25,494 nucleotides of DNA from positions 1-25,494 of the forward strand of contig CACFLM010000006.1 in NCBI GenBank assembly GCA_902567145.1, in the 5' to 3' direction. The DNA comes from an uncultured Alphaproteobacteria bacterium (GTDB taxonomy: Bacteria; Pseudomonadota; Alphaproteobacteria; TMED127). The translations under genes were made by a program, and so were the position numbers. The notes under the pieces are model-generated. The model worked only from the letters and a program-made list of their open reading frames with translations, was not told where the DNA came from and did not search any database. Positions 7,446 through 21,778 of this stretch are shown here, one piece after another (position 1 is the first letter of the stretch; each line of letters begins with the position of its first letter).

Positions 7446-9272
7446 ATGTTTTTTTTATCTAATGAAATATTTATTTATTTAAGTCTCGTTATAGTTCTAA
7501 TGAGTATGATATTTTATGCACTTGATTTTTTATCTATTGTAGTGAAATCAATTGTTATCCTTACATTCTTGCTTATATTCTTTTCATTATTTCCATTTTT
7601 AGATAATGGTGGTCAAAATCTTTTAAATCCTCAAGCAATACTAAAGGGATTTAGTAATACGTCGTTGATTACCGTTTTGTGTTTGTTAATCCTTGGTCAA
7701 GGAGTTGTTCAGACAAGAGCATTGGACAATGTTTTATCTAATTTAACGAGAGCTTTTCCAGATAAACCTAACTTAATAATAATTTTTTGCTTATTGCTTG
7801 TTTTGATTTTGAGTGCTTTCATTAATAACACTCCAGTTGTAATAATTTTTATTCCTATTTTACAAGGTATAATTAAAAATATGAATTCGTCCCTAGGTAA
7901 ATTTCTAATGCCACTTAGCTATGTTGCAATTTTGGGAGGAATGACCACTTTAATTGGCTCAAGTACAAACTTGTTGGTATCCGATTCATTAAAAACATAT
8001 TCAGACATTGACTTAGGCTTTTTTGATTTTACTTTAGCCGGTTCTATCATAGCTTTATCGGGGTTTTTATACGTAATTATTTTTTCAAAGTTCAGATTAT
8101 TTCTCAAAGATAGGTCGCCAACTGCGAATATATTTTTAGATAACAGGGAAAATAACTTTATTACACAGGTAATAATTAATGAAAATTCTGATTTAATCGG
8201 AAAAAGTACTCTCGAGGGAAAGTTTCCGGGACTAGAAAAAATAAAAATATTAATGATTCAGAGGGGAGAGCATGCTGAACATGGTCCTTTCGAGGGTCTT
8301 ATATTAGAGAAGGATGATATTCTTGTTGTTTCTATCAGTCGTGAGAAATTAACAGAGATACTTGCTAAAAATATCGTTTCGTTAGAATATGCTCAAAAAG
8401 ATTCACAACCCTTGGAATATCAACTTATCACCGAAGCTATGGTTACACCTTCATCTAGTCTTGTTGGAAATACAATTGAAAATGTTAGTTTTAGGTATAG
8501 ATATAATTGTTTAGTAATTGGATTACAAAGAAAGTCTAGAATTTTAACTAAGCAAATGGGAGAACTTCCATTAGAACCTGGTGATATATTGTTGATTCAA
8601 GGCAATGCAGATGTCATTAAGAATTTGAGAACACAAAGCGATCTTCTTACGATGGAGTGGGCTACTTCTGAAATTCATAATAAAGAAATAGCTAATAAAT
8701 CATTATTAATTTTTCTTACTGTAATTTCATTGGGAGCTTTTGAGATACTTCCGCTAGTTGTTGCTTCTTTGTTGGGTGTTGTATCAATTCTTTTTTTTAA
8801 AGTCTTGAATATTAGACAGATTTTTAGAAGTATTGATAATAACCTTCTCCTTTTAATTGTTACCTCGTTAGCTCTTGGTCAAGTTATTCAGGTAACAGGA
8901 ACAGCTAACTTTTTATCTGAAATGCTCTTACAAATTTTAGAGGGATCATCACCAATGACTGTGATTCTTTGCTTTTATATATTAGTTTCAATAACAACAA
9001 ACTTTATATCAAATAATGCGTGTGCAGTATTATTTTCTCCAATAGCAATTGATATTGCCGACAAGTTATCTGTTGACCCTAAGACACTTGCTATAGCACT
9101 TATTTTCGCTGTTAATACTTCTTTCTTAACTCCTTTAGCTTATCAAACTAATCTATTGGTAATGGGCCCAGGACATTATAAATTTATTGATTACGTGAAA
9201 TTTGGACTTCCATTAACAATTTTGTGTTGGTTTATATTTTTTATTACATTCCCAATATTTTATAAAATATGA
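7446..9272 (+). CDS. SLC13-type (divalent anion:Na+ symporter-like) permease with two RCK_C domains
   Basis: Inner-membrane transporter of 608 residues. The N-terminal half has several hydrophobic helices (about residues 5-215) including INNTPVVIIFIPIL and GSSTNLLVSDSL, the paired 'NTP' and 'SSTN' loops of the SLC13/ArsB-like fold. The second membrane half repeats them as FISNNACAVLFSPIA and NTSFLTPLAYQTN (about 515-570). Between the halves are two TrkA-C/RCK_C-like regulatory domains (about 230-300 and 322-392), each ending in a GDILL/DDILVV strand. Substrate cannot be told; related proteins carry sulfate, thiosulfate, dicarboxylates or amino sulfonates. Its TGA overlaps the serC ATG (ATGA), so it heads an operon with serC-hisZ-purA. 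Confidence 0.88.
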   Translation: MFFLSNEIFIYLSLVIVLMSMIFYALDFLSIVVKSIVILTFLLIFFSLFPFLDNGGQNLLNPQAILKGFSNTSLITVLCLLILGQGVVQTRALDNVLSNLTRAFPDKPNLIIIFCLLLVLILSAFINNTPVVIIFIPILQGIIKNMNSSLGKFLMPLSYVAILGGMTTLIGSSTNLLVSDSLKTYSDIDLGFFDFTLAGSIIALSGFLYVIIFSKFRLFLKDRSPTANIFLDNRENNFITQVIINENSDLIGKSTLEGKFPGLEKIKILMIQRGEHAEHGPFEGLILEKDDILVVSISREKLTEILAKNIVSLEYAQKDSQPLEYQLITEAMVTPSSSLVGNTIENVSFRYRYNCLVIGLQRKSRILTKQMGELPLEPGDILLIQGNADVIKNLRTQSDLLTMEWATSEIHNKEIANKSLLIFLTVISLGAFEILPLVVASLLGVVSILFFKVLNIRQIFRSIDNNLLLLIVTSLALGQVIQVTGTANFLSEMLLQILEGSSPMTVILCFYILVSITTNFISNNACAVLFSPIAIDIADKLSVDPKTLAIALIFAVNTSFLTPLAYQTNLLVMGPGHYKFIDYVKFGLPLTILCWFIFFITFPIFYKI

Positions 9273-10339
9273 AACTACCTCAAATTGATAAACCTATTAA
9301 CCCAAAATTTTCTTCTGGTCCAACAACAAAACCAGGCGGTTGGAGTTTAAAAAAAATAAATGATAAGTATCTTGGTCGATATCATAGATCAGATGATGTG
9401 AAAGAATTCATTAAAAATCAGATGAGTAGGATAAAAGAAATCTTAAAGATCCCAAGTAATTTCAAAATTTTTCTTACTCCAGGCTCATGTACGGGTGCAA
9501 TGGAAGCAGTTATATGGAGTGTTCTTGGAAAAAGAGCAATTACTTGCCTCATTTATGATTACTGGTCAATGGAATGGCATGAGGATTTAAAAAAATTAAA
9601 TTTAAAAGTTGATGCTAGAATATCGCTAGATGGTTCGATTCCAGACTTAGATGATATTCCATTAGATAATGATTTATTATTTGTTTGGACAGGAACGACA
9701 ACAGGTATTTCTATAAATAATTTAGAATTTTTAAATTCTAAGCAAGAGGGTTTAATTGTTTGCGACATAAATTCAGCTGCTTTTATTTATGATATCCCTT
9801 GGAATAAAATAGATATATCTACCTTTTCTTGGCAAAAAGCATTGGGCTCAGAATCTCAACATGGTGTTGTGGTTATGAGTCCTAAGGCAATTGAAAGACT
9901 TGAGTCAAGAGCTGTACCAAAAATTTTTGATTTTATAAAAAATAATTTTGTAATTAATACTCCTTCATTATTAACAATTTCGGACTTAGAATTATGTTTA
10001 GATTTATATGAAAAGAATGGAGGCTTAAACAGAAGTAATAAGATTTCAAAGGAAAATAAGTTGGTTTTTGATAAATGGGAAGAAAGAAGCGAATTTGTTA
10101 GTTATTTTGTGAAAGAAAGAAGGTATCAAGCAATTTCGCCGGTTTATTTAGTATTTAAAAAAAAAATCCCATATGAAGATATCTTTAAATTTTTAAGTTT
10201 TAACAAAATTGCTTGCGATATAAGGAATTACAGAAAGACTCAACCTGGTGTTAGAATATGGACAGGACCTACAATAAAAAAAAATGATTTAATTGCTCTC
10301 ACAAATTGGCTAGATTGGTGTTTTAATAATTTTGAGTAA
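9269..10339 (+). CDS. serC: Phosphoserine aminotransferase, alphaproteobacterial type
   Basis: PLP enzyme converting 3-phosphohydroxypyruvate and glutamate to phosphoserine. The 356 residues match the SerC subfamily of alphaproteobacteria and Methanosarcina rather than the E. coli type. Supporting segments are FSSGPTTKPGGWSL at the N-terminus, LGRYHRS, TPGSCTGAMEA, VWTGTTTGISI, CDINSAAF and the PLP-lysine loop FSWQKALG with Lys190, followed by SQHGVVVMSP. NTPSLL and the C-terminal GVRIWTGPT also fit. It overlaps the permease by 4 bases and ends 3 bases before hisZ. In many alphaproteobacteria serA lies between serC and hisZ or purA; here it is absent. Confidence 0.93.
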   Translation: MKLPQIDKPINPKFSSGPTTKPGGWSLKKINDKYLGRYHRSDDVKEFIKNQMSRIKEILKIPSNFKIFLTPGSCTGAMEAVIWSVLGKRAITCLIYDYWSMEWHEDLKKLNLKVDARISLDGSIPDLDDIPLDNDLLFVWTGTTTGISINNLEFLNSKQEGLIVCDINSAAFIYDIPWNKIDISTFSWQKALGSESQHGVVVMSPKAIERLESRAVPKIFDFIKNNFVINTPSLLTISDLELCLDLYEKNGGLNRSNKISKENKLVFDKWEERSEFVSYFVKERRYQAISPVYLVFKKKIPYEDIFKFLSFNKIACDIRNYRKTQPGVRIWTGPTIKKNDLIALTNWLDWCFNNFE

Positions 10340-15508: not shown

Positions 15509-16321
15509 GTGAAAAGACTATCCTACAATCAGTTATCTGAGAAAATCTTAAAAAAACGAATTTTTAAAGGTGAAGTTTTTATTATTGAAGATTCCGAGGA
15601 GATTATAAGAATAATAAATACTATACAAAGGTATTTCATCTATTTTTTTAATTTTAAAATGAGAAGTAAAGGAAAGACTAGATTATTAAATAATGATCAG
15701 ACAAATTTGTTTTTTACTATTTTACAAAACAGAGTTAAGCGATGCAAACTAATAAGAGGGTACTTTTCTGCATTTTTAGAAAAAGTAGGCCTTAATATTG
15801 AAGAAACATACATGGACTTTATTACTTTAAGGTTTAGTCCTAGTAATGGAAATAACTCTCTAGGCACCTTGGTTCCAACAGCTGCACATAGAGATACTTG
15901 GGCTTCTAACTTATTTCATCAAATAAATTTTTGGTTTCCGATACATAACGTTTCAGAAGAAAACTCAATTTTTCTTGTTCCAAAATATTTCAATAAAAAT
16001 ATAAAGAATAATAGTGGTATTTGGAGTTATGCTTTTCATAAACAAAAGAAAAATTATCCGTCCACACCAGTTGCTGAAGATATATTTGCTAAAAAGGAGA
16101 TTTTAAGTTTCAAGTTATCTAAAGGAGAGGTTTTGTGTTTTTCAGGCCATCATTTACACGGAAGTAATTTAGGAAATGACCAAAGATTTAATCTCGAGAC
16201 AAGAATTGTATGTAAAAATGATCATAAAGATTTTAAAATCCCGGAGAATTTAGACTCAAATAATAAAATAAAGAAAAAAAAGTGGTTTAAGAATTTAGTC
16301 TCAGGAAAAAATTTTACTTAA
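15509..16321 (+). CDS. Fe(II)/2-oxoglutarate-dependent dioxygenase, PhyH-like
   Basis: The 270 residues contain the facial triad of this superfamily: His127 and Asp129 in AHRDTW, a distal His in GHHLHGSN (His217 or His214), and an arginine for 2-oxoglutarate in RFNLETR (226 or 232). INFWFPIHNVSEENSIFLVP fits the phytanoyl-CoA-dioxygenase-type double-stranded beta-helix. Substrate is unknown. It starts at GTG 15509, 33 bases after the zincin gene, and has no signal peptide. Its stop overlaps the true blh stop by 4 bases, tail to tail with the carotenoid/retinal cluster. A role in carotenoid or lipid hydroxylation is possible but rests on position only. Confidence 0.8.
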   Translation: MKRLSYNQLSEKILKKRIFKGEVFIIEDSEEIIRIINTIQRYFIYFFNFKMRSKGKTRLLNNDQTNLFFTILQNRVKRCKLIRGYFSAFLEKVGLNIEETYMDFITLRFSPSNGNNSLGTLVPTAAHRDTWASNLFHQINFWFPIHNVSEENSIFLVPKYFNKNIKNNSGIWSYAFHKQKKNYPSTPVAEDIFAKKEILSFKLSKGEVLCFSGHHLHGSNLGNDQRFNLETRIVCKNDHKDFKIPENLDSNNKIKKKKWFKNLVSGKNFT

Positions 16322-17200
16322 TTATACTTCGTAAAATTTATTAAAATAATGTGTGAAATAGTAAGAGATGATAAACCAATAACGATATAATTTATGGACT
16401 GATTGTTAAGTGAGTCATTGAAGAAAAAAAATATAAAAATAAAAAAAATTATTGTTAATAAGGTCATTGGGATTGTTTTTAGTATTAATTTAGGTGTACT
16501 TAGTTGCAAGTTATTTTTCTCTTCGATTAGGTGACGTGTTGAATGAAGAAAACAGAAATAAATAAAAAAAGAAAATAAAGGTTCAAAAAAACCAAAAACA
16601 GAAAAATAATAAGGATATTTCTATTACTAAATTAATAGATTTATTTGATTTAAAGAAGAAGTTTAAATTCTTAACCAACCAAACCAATATAAGCAAGATT
16701 AGTAGAATATAAATATAGTCAAAATAAATGCTAATGACTGATAGAAAATTTTCATTAACAAGAAAAAATGAAAATATTTCAATTGATTTTTCTGAATGAA
16801 ATTTAAAAGGCAAAGAAATAACAATTAACCCTCTAACAAGAACCTCAATTAATTTATTTTTTGATATGCAATCACTTATTCCGAAATGTAAACATGATAA
16901 AAATAAAAATAATATAAAAATAAAATTGGGAAAATTTATCCACATTAAAAAAAAAATTAATGGAATGGATACATATGTTACTACAAAAAATATTGTTCCC
17001 AATTTACTTTTTATAACATTCTTATGTTTAGCAATTAAGATATCTAGACTTCCATGAGCAAGACCAGGCCATAGCAAGGGTAAAGAAAATAATATAATTT
17101 GATTAAAATATTTCCCTGAAAAATAATTTTCATACAATAATACAATCGGGATCGTTAGGACAATTGAAAAAAAAAATAATTTAGTCTCTAAAAATTTCAT
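16318..17200 (-). pseudogene. blh: Beta-carotene 15,15'-dioxygenase Blh, interrupted by a one-base frameshift
   Basis: Membrane Brp/Blh enzyme that cleaves beta-carotene into two retinals. The first frame (17200-16583) gives 205 residues ending FWFF-stop; the second (open to the stop at 16318) supplies the rest. The break is at a run of 7 T on the minus strand (16591-16585). Dropping one T gives an unbroken 293-residue protein continuing EPLFSFFIYFCFLHSTRH. Predicted iron ligands are His49 (GLAHGSLD), His105 (CLHFGISD), His219 and His223 (HSTRH). Their spacing matches His21, 78, 188 and 192 reported for the marine 66A03 Blh. The last two lie beyond the frameshift. The ATG abuts the crtY stop. 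Frameshift may be sequencing error, decay or recoding. Confidence 0.87.
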
Positions 17201-18313
17201 TTATTTCTCAAATACAGCTTTTATCAGTGAAAACTTCGGAAGCGTTATTATAATTTTTAATATTTCTAGAAAATTTGCTGAATTTGTTAAAAATTTAACT
17301 ATCGAATATAAATTATTATGCTTAAAAAAATTTTCAAAAAATAAATTTAACTCTCTTGGATTTTTTATAGCAAATTTACAAAATATATTATCTAAGAAAT
17401 CATACAGTAATTTTTTTTTAATTTGTGGGTTTTGACCTTTAATTATGCAGTCAACAATTTGTTTTGAGAAAATAAATGAGTTTTGTAAAGAATAGCCCGT
17501 AGATTGCTTTACCCAATTACCTGCTGTACCAATTTTAATATAATTATTAGTATTTCTTTCTTGAAACTTAAACATTGGGATAATTCCTGACTCGATATTT
17601 ATTATTTTATATTTTTTTCCATAAAATTTTTTTGATATATATGTGTTTATATCTTTTTTATAGTTTGAGATAGTTAGCGCTTTATTAGAAAAATAAGTAG
17701 TTTCAATTAAAACTTTTTTTTCACTAAATGGTAGCATATAGATGAAATTAAAGTTTTTATTATTATCTTGTAAATCCATTAGTATAACCTCATTTTTATC
17801 CACGGTATCATCTTGGAAGACGATCTCTGCACCATAGAAGTGCTGAATAAGTTTTTGAGGTTTATTAATATTTTTATCAATTCTGCTATCGAATAGTAGA
17901 GACGATTTATATTTAGTTCTTTTGGTACCGACAAAAATACTGTCATCTTCTTTTTTTAAATAATTTATCTTTTGTCCCATCAATAATTTAAAATTTTTAT
18001 GTTTCTTTAACTTTTCCAAGAAAAAGTTAAAAAGGTTGTGAGACCTTATTCTCAGATATTTTATTTTATTAGAAGTAAGTATTATTTTTTTTTTATTAAT
18101 AACTACACAAACCTTGTCCCATCCATTTTCTGCGTAGCTTGTTAAAATGTTGTGTGGAACGTTCCAAAAACATAGATTCTTGTCAAACCCTATTTTTTTT
18201 CTTTTCTCTAATAATAGAACCTTCTTATTTGTTCTCTTTATTATTTCATAAGCTAAGATGAGTCCTGATACCCCAGCGCCTATGATAATTATATCAAAAT
18301 TATTTTTAATCAC
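17201..18313 (-). CDS. crtY: Lycopene beta-cyclase CrtY
   Basis: FAD-dependent cyclase making beta-carotene from lycopene at the inner membrane. The 370-residue protein starts with a dinucleotide fold, FDIIIIGAGVSGLILAYEI and VLLLEKR; FWNVPH near residue 50 and YGAEIVF, VILMDLQD and FIYMLPFS in the middle fit the CrtY 'FxxMD.....F.Y.LPF' region. IKIGTAGNWVKQSTGYSLQ is the C-terminal FAD segment (G..TGY.L). GTG start at 18313. Its stop abuts the blh ATG. It sits in the expected place between crtB and blh. Confidence 0.93.
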   Translation of the reverse strand: MIKNNFDIIIIGAGVSGLILAYEIIKRTNKKVLLLEKRKKIGFDKNLCFWNVPHNILTSYAENGWDKVCVVINKKKIILTSNKIKYLRIRSHNLFNFFLEKLKKHKNFKLLMGQKINYLKKEDDSIFVGTKRTKYKSSLLFDSRIDKNINKPQKLIQHFYGAEIVFQDDTVDKNEVILMDLQDNNKNFNFIYMLPFSEKKVLIETTYFSNKALTISNYKKDINTYISKKFYGKKYKIINIESGIIPMFKFQERNTNNYIKIGTAGNWVKQSTGYSLQNSFIFSKQIVDCIIKGQNPQIKKKLLYDFLDNIFCKFAIKNPRELNLFFENFFKHNNLYSIVKFLTNSANFLEILKIIITLPKFSLIKAVFEK

Positions 18314-18384
18314 CTTATGCTGAATAAATATTTTTTAGAGCATTATTTAATTTATTTTCTAAAAGTTTATTATAGTATTCTTTT

Positions 18385-19221
18385 CTATAAAAAATTAATT
18401 TTAAAAAAACTCTTAAGGTTTTTTAAAACTTTTTCTAATTTTGAGAGATAAACTCTTTGCTGCCAAATATTGTAATTATTCTTTCTGATCTTATTTCCAA
18501 TTGACTGATATAGATACGAAGCAATACTTATTGGGATTCTATATTTTATTGGTAATAGAATAACACCTCTCCAAGCTAAATTATAAATCTGATCAGAAGT
18601 ATCCAAAAGTAATTTCAAATCTCCAGTGAATTTGGCTTGAAGCTCTTCATCAATAAGAAGGTTTGAAAAACTATCATTTACATTTTTTCGAATCTCTTCT
18701 GGGAAATAAACTCTTCCACTTTCTAAATCCTCTTTGATATCTCTTGCTATATTCGTCAGCTGCATAGCTATTCCTAAATAAATGCCTTTATTTATTAATG
18801 ATTTACTTTTCACTTCCATAATTTTACACATCATTAAACCTACAGTTCCAGCAACTTTATAACTATAAGTAAAAAGTTGGTCATAATTTTTAATATTTAC
18901 TCTATTCAAATCGAATAAAACACCATTTATTAGGTCTAAGGCTGTTGATAGATTGATATTGTATTTAGACATTAATGTAATGAACCCTAGAACGATTTCA
19001 TCATTTGATTTACTTTGTTTTAATTCTTTCTTAATAGTTTTTAGTTTGATTTTAGATTTTTTATTTGTATCGTCTTTATCATCTGCTATATCATCTACAA
19101 GCCTACAAAATAAATAAAGCTTGCTAATATCGATTTGTTTTTCTTTTGAAAAGAAAAGTGAAGCAAAATAAAAAGTTTTAGCTCTTTTTTTTAATGAGAG
19201 ATTAATAATATTTTTATTCAT
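18385..19221 (-). CDS. crtB: Phytoene synthase CrtB, probably missing its C-terminus through a frameshift
   Basis: Condenses two geranylgeranyl diphosphates to phytoene. Aspartate-rich motif one is LVDDIADDKDD (about residues 41-51); motif two is NIARDIKEDLESGRVYFPEEI; YKVAGTVGLMM also fits. As read the protein has 278 residues and stops at a TAG at 18387-18385. Removing one T from the 6-T run at 18394-18389 (or the 7-T run just before it) continues the frame as YRKEYYNKLLENKLNNALK and beyond to residue 301, with a TAA at 18317-18315, one base before crtY. That restores typical CrtB length and the zero-gap spacing of this cluster. The start overlaps the crtI stop by 8 bases. The catalytic core is complete as read. 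Confidence 0.94.
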   Translation of the reverse strand: MNKNIINLSLKKRAKTFYFASLFFSKEKQIDISKLYLFCRLVDDIADDKDDTNKKSKIKLKTIKKELKQSKSNDEIVLGFITLMSKYNINLSTALDLINGVLFDLNRVNIKNYDQLFTYSYKVAGTVGLMMCKIMEVKSKSLINKGIYLGIAMQLTNIARDIKEDLESGRVYFPEEIRKNVNDSFSNLLIDEELQAKFTGDLKLLLDTSDQIYNLAWRGVILLPIKYRIPISIASYLYQSIGNKIRKNNYNIWQQRVYLSKLEKVLKNLKSFFKINFL

Positions 19222-20686
19222 TTTTGAGAATATTTTCTAAAACTTTAGCTGAACTTATGACTCCTGGAACTCCAGCACCAGGGTGACAGCCTGCTCCAAC
19301 AAAATAAAGGTTTTTAAAGTTTTCCGACTTATTATGAAATCTAAACCAAGCAGACTGTTTGAATATTGGAGAGATTGAAAAGCCACTTCCATAAAGAGAA
19401 TTGTAATCATTTTTAAAATCATCTGGTGACATGTGAAAACATACCTTCAAATTCTTCCTTAGTCCTGGTAGAATAGAATTTTCCAGAGCAACTAATATTT
19501 TTTCTTGATAAACCTTACCATACTCTTTCCAATTAATTTTATTTTTAAGGTTTGGGACTGGAGATAAAACATAAAAGCAGTCGCAATTCTTCGGAGCCAT
19601 TGATTTATCTGTAGCTGTTGGTCTATGAAGGTATAAACTGAAATCATCTGCTAAGATTTGTTTGTTAAAAATATCTTTTAATAAACCTTCATATCTCTTA
19701 CCCATCCAAATAGTGTGGTGAGCAATATCTTTATATTGTTTTTTGGTACCAAAATATATAACAAATAGACCCATGGAAAAATCCATTTTTTCTATCTTTC
19801 TTTTATTCCATTTCTTATTAAGATGATTTTTAATTAAGTGTTTATAAGTGAATGCTGGGTCAGTATTTAAAATAATTTTGTTTGCATATATATTTTTCTG
19901 TTTAACCTTTATACCAACTGCTATATTTTTATTAAAAATAATATTTGTAACTTCTGTATTCTTAAATATTTTGATATTTTCTTCCTTCATTAATTTCTCA
20001 AAACCTTTTATTATTGTTCCTGTTCCACCCATTGCATAATGCACACCCCATTTTCTTTCCAAAAAGTGGATTAAATTATAAATTGAAGTTGTTTCAATAG
20101 GATTGCCTCCTAGTAGTAGAGGTTGAATACTAAAAGCTTGTCTAATCTGTTCGTTCTTTATAAACTTTGAAACCAATTGAAAGACGCTTAAATAACTTTT
20201 TAATTTTATTAAAGTTGGAATTTGTTTGAGCATAAAATAAAAATTATGAAATGGAACGAATGAAAGTTTATTAAAGCCAACATTAAAAATTTTTTCAGAA
20301 AATTTTAAAAGACGGCGATAGCCCGCAACATCTGTTTCACTAAATTTAGATATTTCTTTTTCTGTTTTTTCCAAACTGCGTGAGTAATCGAAGGTCTTTT
20401 TATTTGATGAAAAATAAAATCTATACCATGGGTCAATTTCTACAAATTTTACATAATTAGATCTATCTTTGCCAAAAAGACGAAACAGTTCATCAAACAG
20501 AAAGGGCGCTGTTATAACCGTTGGTCCTGCATCAAATGTGAATCCCGACTCTTTAAATACTCTCGCTCTTCCGCCAAGTTGTTCTAATTTTTCATAAACT
20601 GAGACTTCGTACCCAAGCGATCTCATTCGAAGTGCAGCTGAGATACCACCGAATCCAGAACCTACAACAATTGCAGTTTTTTCCAT
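19214..20686 (-). CDS. crtI: Phytoene desaturase (lycopene-forming) CrtI
   Basis: FAD enzyme introducing four double bonds into phytoene to give lycopene. The 490 residues match the bacterial CrtI length. Seen: N-terminal Rossmann fold AIVVGSGFGGISAALRM with VYEKLEQLGGRA; TFDAGPTVITAPFLFDELF; GVHYAMGGTGTIIKGFEKL; and the C-terminal FAD/substrate segment YFVGAGCHPGAGVPGVISSA. The ATG at 20686 abuts the crtE stop, and the 3' end overlaps crtB by 8 bases. Product specificity (lycopene) is inferred from the following crtY and blh. Confidence 0.97.
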   Translation of the reverse strand: MEKTAIVVGSGFGGISAALRMRSLGYEVSVYEKLEQLGGRARVFKESGFTFDAGPTVITAPFLFDELFRLFGKDRSNYVKFVEIDPWYRFYFSSNKKTFDYSRSLEKTEKEISKFSETDVAGYRRLLKFSEKIFNVGFNKLSFVPFHNFYFMLKQIPTLIKLKSYLSVFQLVSKFIKNEQIRQAFSIQPLLLGGNPIETTSIYNLIHFLERKWGVHYAMGGTGTIIKGFEKLMKEENIKIFKNTEVTNIIFNKNIAVGIKVKQKNIYANKIILNTDPAFTYKHLIKNHLNKKWNKRKIEKMDFSMGLFVIYFGTKKQYKDIAHHTIWMGKRYEGLLKDIFNKQILADDFSLYLHRPTATDKSMAPKNCDCFYVLSPVPNLKNKINWKEYGKVYQEKILVALENSILPGLRKNLKVCFHMSPDDFKNDYNSLYGSGFSISPIFKQSAWFRFHNKSENFKNLYFVGAGCHPGAGVPGVISSAKVLENILKNE

Positions 20687-21778
20687 TTATATTTTTTTTA
20701 TATTTTTAGTGAGTCTTATTATTATTGAACTTATTACAAAACTGACTATTTTAGATAAACCTTCATCAGTTTTATTTGAAATATCAATAGCTTTTTGAGA
20801 AACTGAATTTAAATGAAGAAATGAAAGGTCAAGTGCACCTTTTTTTTTAATTTTATCTAGCCAGAAACTTATCTCATCTTCAGAGATCGAGTCATATCTT
20901 TTTTTAAGAAATCTTTGGAGAATAAATTTCTCTCCATTGGATGCATTGGCTATAAAATGCATAATTAAAATATTCATTTTTCCTTCTTTTAGATCTCTTC
21001 CTGGTAGACCTCTATCTTTTAATCCAAGAAAATCTGATAAATCATCCTGTATTTGATAAGCAATTCCAGTCTCATAAAGAGGGGAAAAATAATCTTCCTC
21101 AAAATCAATCCCAGAGAGAATTAATGCCAATTTAACTGGTAAACATATTAATCCACCAGTTTTTGCTTTGGAAGTAGATTCATAATCTTGCATTTTCAGA
21201 TTAAAATCTGATCTACTTAATATCTCGATTGATTGACCTTTGACAGTCTGCTTTATTGTATTACTTAATTCTCTAATAGCTTTACACTTGAGACTAGGGT
21301 CAACTTCAGTATTTGCAAGAACTTCAAATGAAGCTGAAATAAAGAAGTCTCCTAAATTTATGGCTGTGTGATCTCCAAATCTATTCCAGATTGTAGGTAG
21401 TCCTCTTCTAAGTATGTCTCTATCTTGTAAATCGTCATGAATTAATGATGCATTGTGAATAAATTCACAACACATCGCAATGTTAAATGAAACTTTTTTG
21501 TCCAAGCCGAATATTTTGGATGATAAAAGAGCAAGAATAGCTCTAAACCTTTTTCCACCTGATTTTAATTGATATTTAGCACAATGTCCCATCCATGTGT
21601 CATCACATAGAATTTCTGACATTTTTTTATCAAGTTTTTTAAGATCATTTTTATAAAACCCATGGTCTAGAAAACTTAGATCAATACTTCTCTGAAAGTT
21701 ATTTAAGCCTAACCAGTTCTGATTAGTATACAAAAACTGTAAGTGGTTTTTATTTTCTGATGTTAGTAATTTATCCAT
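20687..21778 (-). CDS. crtE: Geranylgeranyl diphosphate synthase CrtE
   Basis: Trans-prenyltransferase elongating farnesyl or dimethylallyl diphosphate to GGPP. It has KSGGKRFRAILALL, the first Asp-rich motif in ASLIHDDLQDRD, KTGGLICLPVKLA, and the second Asp-rich motif YQIQDDLSDFLG followed by GLPGRDLKEGKMN. I take ATG 21778 as start, giving 363 residues, longer than the usual ~300, with about 20 extra residues before the GGKR block. An in-frame ATG at 21799 lies inside the terminator hairpin. Neither start has a good ribosome-binding site, which is unusual and may limit expression. It is the first gene of the retinal pathway, after proteorhodopsin. Confidence 0.93.
   Translation of the reverse strand: MDKLLTSENKNHLQFLYTNQNWLGLNNFQRSIDLSFLDHGFYKNDLKKLDKKMSEILCDDTWMGHCAKYQLKSGGKRFRAILALLSSKIFGLDKKVSFNIAMCCEFIHNASLIHDDLQDRDILRRGLPTIWNRFGDHTAINLGDFFISASFEVLANTEVDPSLKCKAIRELSNTIKQTVKGQSIEILSRSDFNLKMQDYESTSKAKTGGLICLPVKLALILSGIDFEEDYFSPLYETGIAYQIQDDLSDFLGLKDRGLPGRDLKEGKMNILIMHFIANASNGEKFILQRFLKKRYDSISEDEISFWLDKIKKKGALDLSFLHLNSVSQKAIDISNKTDEGLSKIVSFVISSIIIRLTKNIKKI

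Follow-up and report, generated by a model that had tools for sequence, protein, structure and literature searches.

Does a single extra T in blh, the last gene of a retinal cluster in an uncultured marine alphaproteobacterium, mark a site of recoding, a gene being lost or a flaw in the sequence? The stretch of DNA analysed here (25,494 nucleotides, G+C 29.8%; hereafter the window) carries on its minus strand (22534-16318) a cluster identified by Pfam matches as proteorhodopsin, crtE, a crtI-like desaturase, crtB, crtY and blh (Table 1; some of the crt names, including crtI for the desaturase, are those which we take to be usual). The blh frame opens with ATG at 17200 and runs for 205 codons to a TGA at 16585-16583. 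The first-pass annotation had ascribed this stop to an extra T, and its gene, base and coordinates proved correct (BCD profile; seven T at 16591-16585); it had also placed the TGA right after the seven T, of which the run and the stop codon stood and the word "after" did not, the seventh T being itself the T of the stop, which thus overlaps the run. Removal of one T gives, as had been proposed, a blh of 293 aa ending at 16320-16318, where its stop overlaps that of the convergent ORF at 15509-16321; the same 4-base overlap is found in the closest relative, genome G001 (20012-20893 versus 19203-20015).

Table 1. Features of the retinal cluster and its convergent neighbour in the window
Feature	Coordinates	Strand	Evidence
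Proteorhodopsin, 231 aa	21839..22534	-	Pfam Bac_rhodopsin; comparison with G001
crtE, polyprenyl synthase, 370 aa	20687..21799	-	Pfam polyprenyl_synt; comparison with G001
crtI-like phytoene desaturase, 490 aa, in frame	19214..20686	-	Pfam Amino_oxidase/NAD_binding_8; comparison with G001
crtB, phytoene synthase, 278 aa, shortened by a one-base insertion	18385..19221	-	Pfam SQS_PSY; relatives
crtY, lycopene cyclase, 370 aa, in frame	17201..18313	-	Pfam Lycopene_cycl; comparison with G001
blh first frame, 205 aa, His49 and His105	16583..17200	-	Pfam BCD, 70.9 bits
T run of 7 in blh	16585..16591	-	T6 in 12/12 congeneric genomes with blh
blh second frame, 88 further aa, HSTRH (His219, His223), stop 16320-16318	16318..16584	-
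Convergent ORF, 270 aa, stop overlapping the full-length blh stop	15509..16321	+

Against the BCD profile (PF15461), the 205-aa frame scored 70.9 bits over positions 7-170 of 267 and the gene read across the break 136 bits over positions 7-265, both above the curated cut-off of 28 bits, and the Blh protein of G001 matched both pieces of the window gene in two frames (tblastn). Profile and tblastn matches across the two frames confirmed that the predicted split is more than chance. The gene resembles the Brp/Blh beta-carotene 15,15'-dioxygenases of the marine proteorhodopsin type in its BCD match across the break (7-265), in its four conserved histidines and in its clustering with crtE, crtI, crtB, crtY and proteorhodopsin, as in G001; it differs from them in being split, in this record, by a single extra base that shifts His219 and His223 out of the frame.

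None of the four histidines varies among the 25 uncut blh genes of the family. From their spacing and this invariance, His49, His105, His219 and His223 would be the counterparts of His21, His78, His188 and His192 of the characterised marine 66A03 enzyme. His49 and His105 precede the break, and His219 and His223, within HSTRH, occur only behind it, so the earlier statements that this motif is confined to the second part and that half of the metal-site histidines are lost from the open frame both held; as written, the 205-aa frame has two of the four. In the accessible text of a review (PMC9227343), alanine at any of His21, 78, 188 or 192 of the 66A03 enzyme leaves less than 5% of the activity, and Blh as written, without His219 and His223, would not be expected to work. 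The further assertion that no retinal can be made without the motif was too strong, as Aurantimicrobium minutum produces retinal in the absence of blh, according to the accessible part of PMC7734400. A search by sequence for a solved structure of a Blh relative gave no match at E up to 1.

Among the relatives examined, the break is confined to the window's record. The first-pass annotation had proposed comparing close relatives at the site, with six T there as the refuting outcome, and six T were found in all the close relatives compared. A scan of GTDB genome contigs yielded seven related loci, all from uncultured marine Alphaproteobacteria and all with T6 and an open blh of 293-294 aa; these appear to be among the congeneric genomes, that is, those of the genus of G001, where blh is present in 12 of 13 and each of the 12 has T6 and an open gene of 293-296 aa. 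In these relatives the six-T run encodes Phe-Phe, and T6 there indicates that the window gene is an ordinary one carrying an extra base of its own. In the family as a whole, BCD was detected in 27 of 32 genomes, and after exclusion of G023 and G032, whose genes are cut by contig ends, all 25 remaining blh genes are open, with 290-307 aa (G018, which has HSIKH instead of HSxRH and is therefore absent from the site listing, is counted as open). A 284-aa ORF of G023 matched by a loose motif was discarded as another protein, and a T7 in G014 was rejected as an instance of the same break because that gene keeps its reading frame (TAT TTT TTT GAA).

The protein database contained 304 Blh homologues, of which 120 were listed. 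One of them (P0002) corresponds to the 205-aa frame of the window itself, and no other among those listed ends at 205 aa; the next best of the matches listed (P0001) is whole and 73% identical to the window Blh. Shorter than 270 aa among the 120 were only P0002 and P0070. The latter, the blh of another relative, has 175 aa, 68% identity over the aligned part and final residues foreign to the family, and is cut at another place than the window gene; blh breaks may thus recur. Among the database matches listed, neither blh nor crtB was represented by a second copy from the window's species; viral contigs searched for exact matches to the T6 site gave none, and a literature search found no broken blh in rhodopsin bearers in titles and abstract openings, which is not proof of absence.

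The part of blh behind the break is as constrained as the part before it. Compared with G001, dN was 0.099 and dS 1.174 behind the break (88 codons) and 0.188 and 0.821 before it (205 codons; Nei-Gojobori with Jukes-Cantor correction, dS near saturation). Residue changes were placed on the window side and the G001 side in similar numbers, 15 versus 20 before the break and 4 versus 4 behind it (Fisher p 1.0; the change could not be placed in 36 columns). An old pseudogene is rejected on these grounds, and a second part that is constrained and not drifting implies an insertion that is either artefactual, of very recent origin, or bypassed.

A second break, which had not been noticed in the first-pass annotation, lies in crtB. 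Among the 26 ORFs of the window compared with a G001 counterpart, a frame change was found in two, blh and crtB. The crtB insertion falls within TTTTTTTAAAA (18399-18409, minus strand), in a T or an A run, behind which the conserved tail continues in another frame to a stop at 18315-18317, for 301 aa in all. The gene as written encodes 278 aa, compared with 286-312 residues in 26 family orthologues (counted from the window's start); a wider database search returned four other entries below 280 aa among 89 listed (E up to 1e-60), and one crtB entry (P0122), on a contig equal in length to that of P0070, is whole. To judge from these comparisons, the crtB insertion is private to the window's record, similar to the break in blh. 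Since the 23 residues lost lie outside the Pfam domain, with profile positions 1-262 of 263 still matched, CrtB may still work and the loss may be harmless.

That the cell might bypass a real break, either through slippage of RNA polymerase along the seven U or through a +1 ribosomal slip at UUU-UGA-A, giving some full-length Blh, had been suggested at the outset and is very unlikely. In its favour, the second frame has stayed intact and under constraint, a tRNA-Phe slip is permitted by the sequence, and recoding can correct insertions in short A runs in chloroplasts, as described in the accessible portion of PMC8254509; in that same portion, however, an A8 tract was insufficient for slippage. 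The break occurs in none of the 12 congeneric genomes with blh and none of the 25 uncut family genes, so no recoding signal is conserved, and the T run was rejected as a conserved slip site given T6 in relatives. No unusual stimulating RNA structure was detected behind the site (121 nt, pseudoknot-free folds; z -0.14, with 85 of 200 shuffles as stable). Avoidance of runs appears at nine nucleotides in many of 108 bacterial genomes, according to the available text of PMC1088944, and the blh run, with seven, is shorter. The genes of the window gave no clear sign of avoiding slippage-prone A/T runs in 500 synonymous shuffles (62 runs of at least seven versus 61.1; 13 of at least nine versus 13.5; 5 of at least ten versus 7.5, with 87 of the 500 shuffles as low), and nine-or-longer runs as frequent as in shuffles would imply little slippage by the reasoning in that text of PMC1088944; efficient slippage would also scramble the two T10 runs within blh. 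With the "pseudo pseudogenes" rescued by transcriptional slippage, as that source presents them, blh shares a frame break at a T run and an intact second frame, but its run is seven and not nine, the window gives no sign of selection against long runs, and its relatives do not share the break. Recoding thus found no support in the tests made here, and the extra T is probably not a recoding site. It is highly improbable that T7 is the true fixed state and that low-level frame correction at UUU-UGA-A makes Blh and throttles the retinal supply to proteorhodopsin; in that event, selection for frame correction would have left its trace in the constraint on the second part. Phase variation, with the T run as a population on/off switch of retinal synthesis, is extremely improbable: the insertion does lie within a homopolymer, and the blh of another relative (P0070) is cut elsewhere, but at the run, which is fixed by its Phe-Phe codons, every one of the 12 congeneric genomes with blh has the on state, and a run of six or seven bases is short for a contingency locus.

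Very probably, then, this is an ordinary blh, the last gene in the proteorhodopsin-crtE-crtI-crtB-crtY-blh cluster of an uncultured marine alphaproteobacterium, and it is broken in one record alone by one extra T in a six-T run, the result of faulty sequencing or assembly or of a very recent mutation. We consider an error probable and a very recent slippage mutation rather unlikely; error is ranked first since a single contig holds a pair of disruptive insertions while the rest of its genes keep their frames. For a living gene set under constraint, two disruptive single-base insertions in 24.8 kb of coding sequence is a high number, and this speaks for a flaw in the contig. The first suspicion raised by such a pair is faulty sequence, and the second is that the retinal pathway has very recently begun to decay. 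Some observations run against an artefact. A length-dependent homopolymer error should affect longer runs first, but at the 33 coding A/T runs of 8-11 bases no frame break was seen relative to G001, the two in-frame T10 runs inside blh being among them; the breaks in blh and crtB are placed at runs of seven bases or shorter. Both fall in the six-gene retinal cluster, which makes up 24% of the window (chance of both 0.06), as pathway decay would give. The artefact reading is also limited by its nearest relative, which is 73% identical, with no copy from the same species among the matches listed. A real and very recent loss, with blh and crtB both hit and with retinal taken from outside or proteorhodopsin idle, is nevertheless unlikely. 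It would account for the position of both breaks in the retinal cluster; the long runs in the rest of the window keep their frames, which is not the pattern of a general homopolymer error, and rhodopsin-bearing bacteria without blh do exist (PMC7734400, in its accessible part). Against it, a rhodopsin without BCD occurs in no genome of the family (the rhodopsin family was detected in 25 of 32, and BCD in all 25 of these), the proteorhodopsin is 99.1% identical to its G001 counterpart, blh, crtY, crtI and crtE have no further decay, and the 23 residues missing from CrtB may be dispensable.

The blh break thus looks like an error in, or a very recent mutation of, an ordinary gene and not like a new mechanism, and the earlier reading is partly supported. 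The 205-aa database entry (P0002) is a fragment, and calls of blh or crtB from the window's contig are not to be taken as gene loss. If the break is real and fixed, the organism would be a proteorhodopsin bearer whose own retinal supply has just been lost or is throttled, unlike the rest of its family.

Some minor features of the window may be added. The ORFs at 15509-16321 and 9269-10339 (both plus strand) had no Pfam match at E 0.001 and are kept in G001 at 72% and 84%, respectively. The end of crtE (20687-20700, minus strand) has A8 in the window versus A7 in G001, by which the last residues are altered and the 4-base overlap with crtI in G001 becomes a direct adjacency; it was rejected as a third break, because only the last residues differ and the A7 frame would have no stop of its own in the window. 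The proteorhodopsin gene is 92.4% identical to that of G001 in DNA (99.1% in protein), compared with 75-88% DNA identity for the other matched genes.
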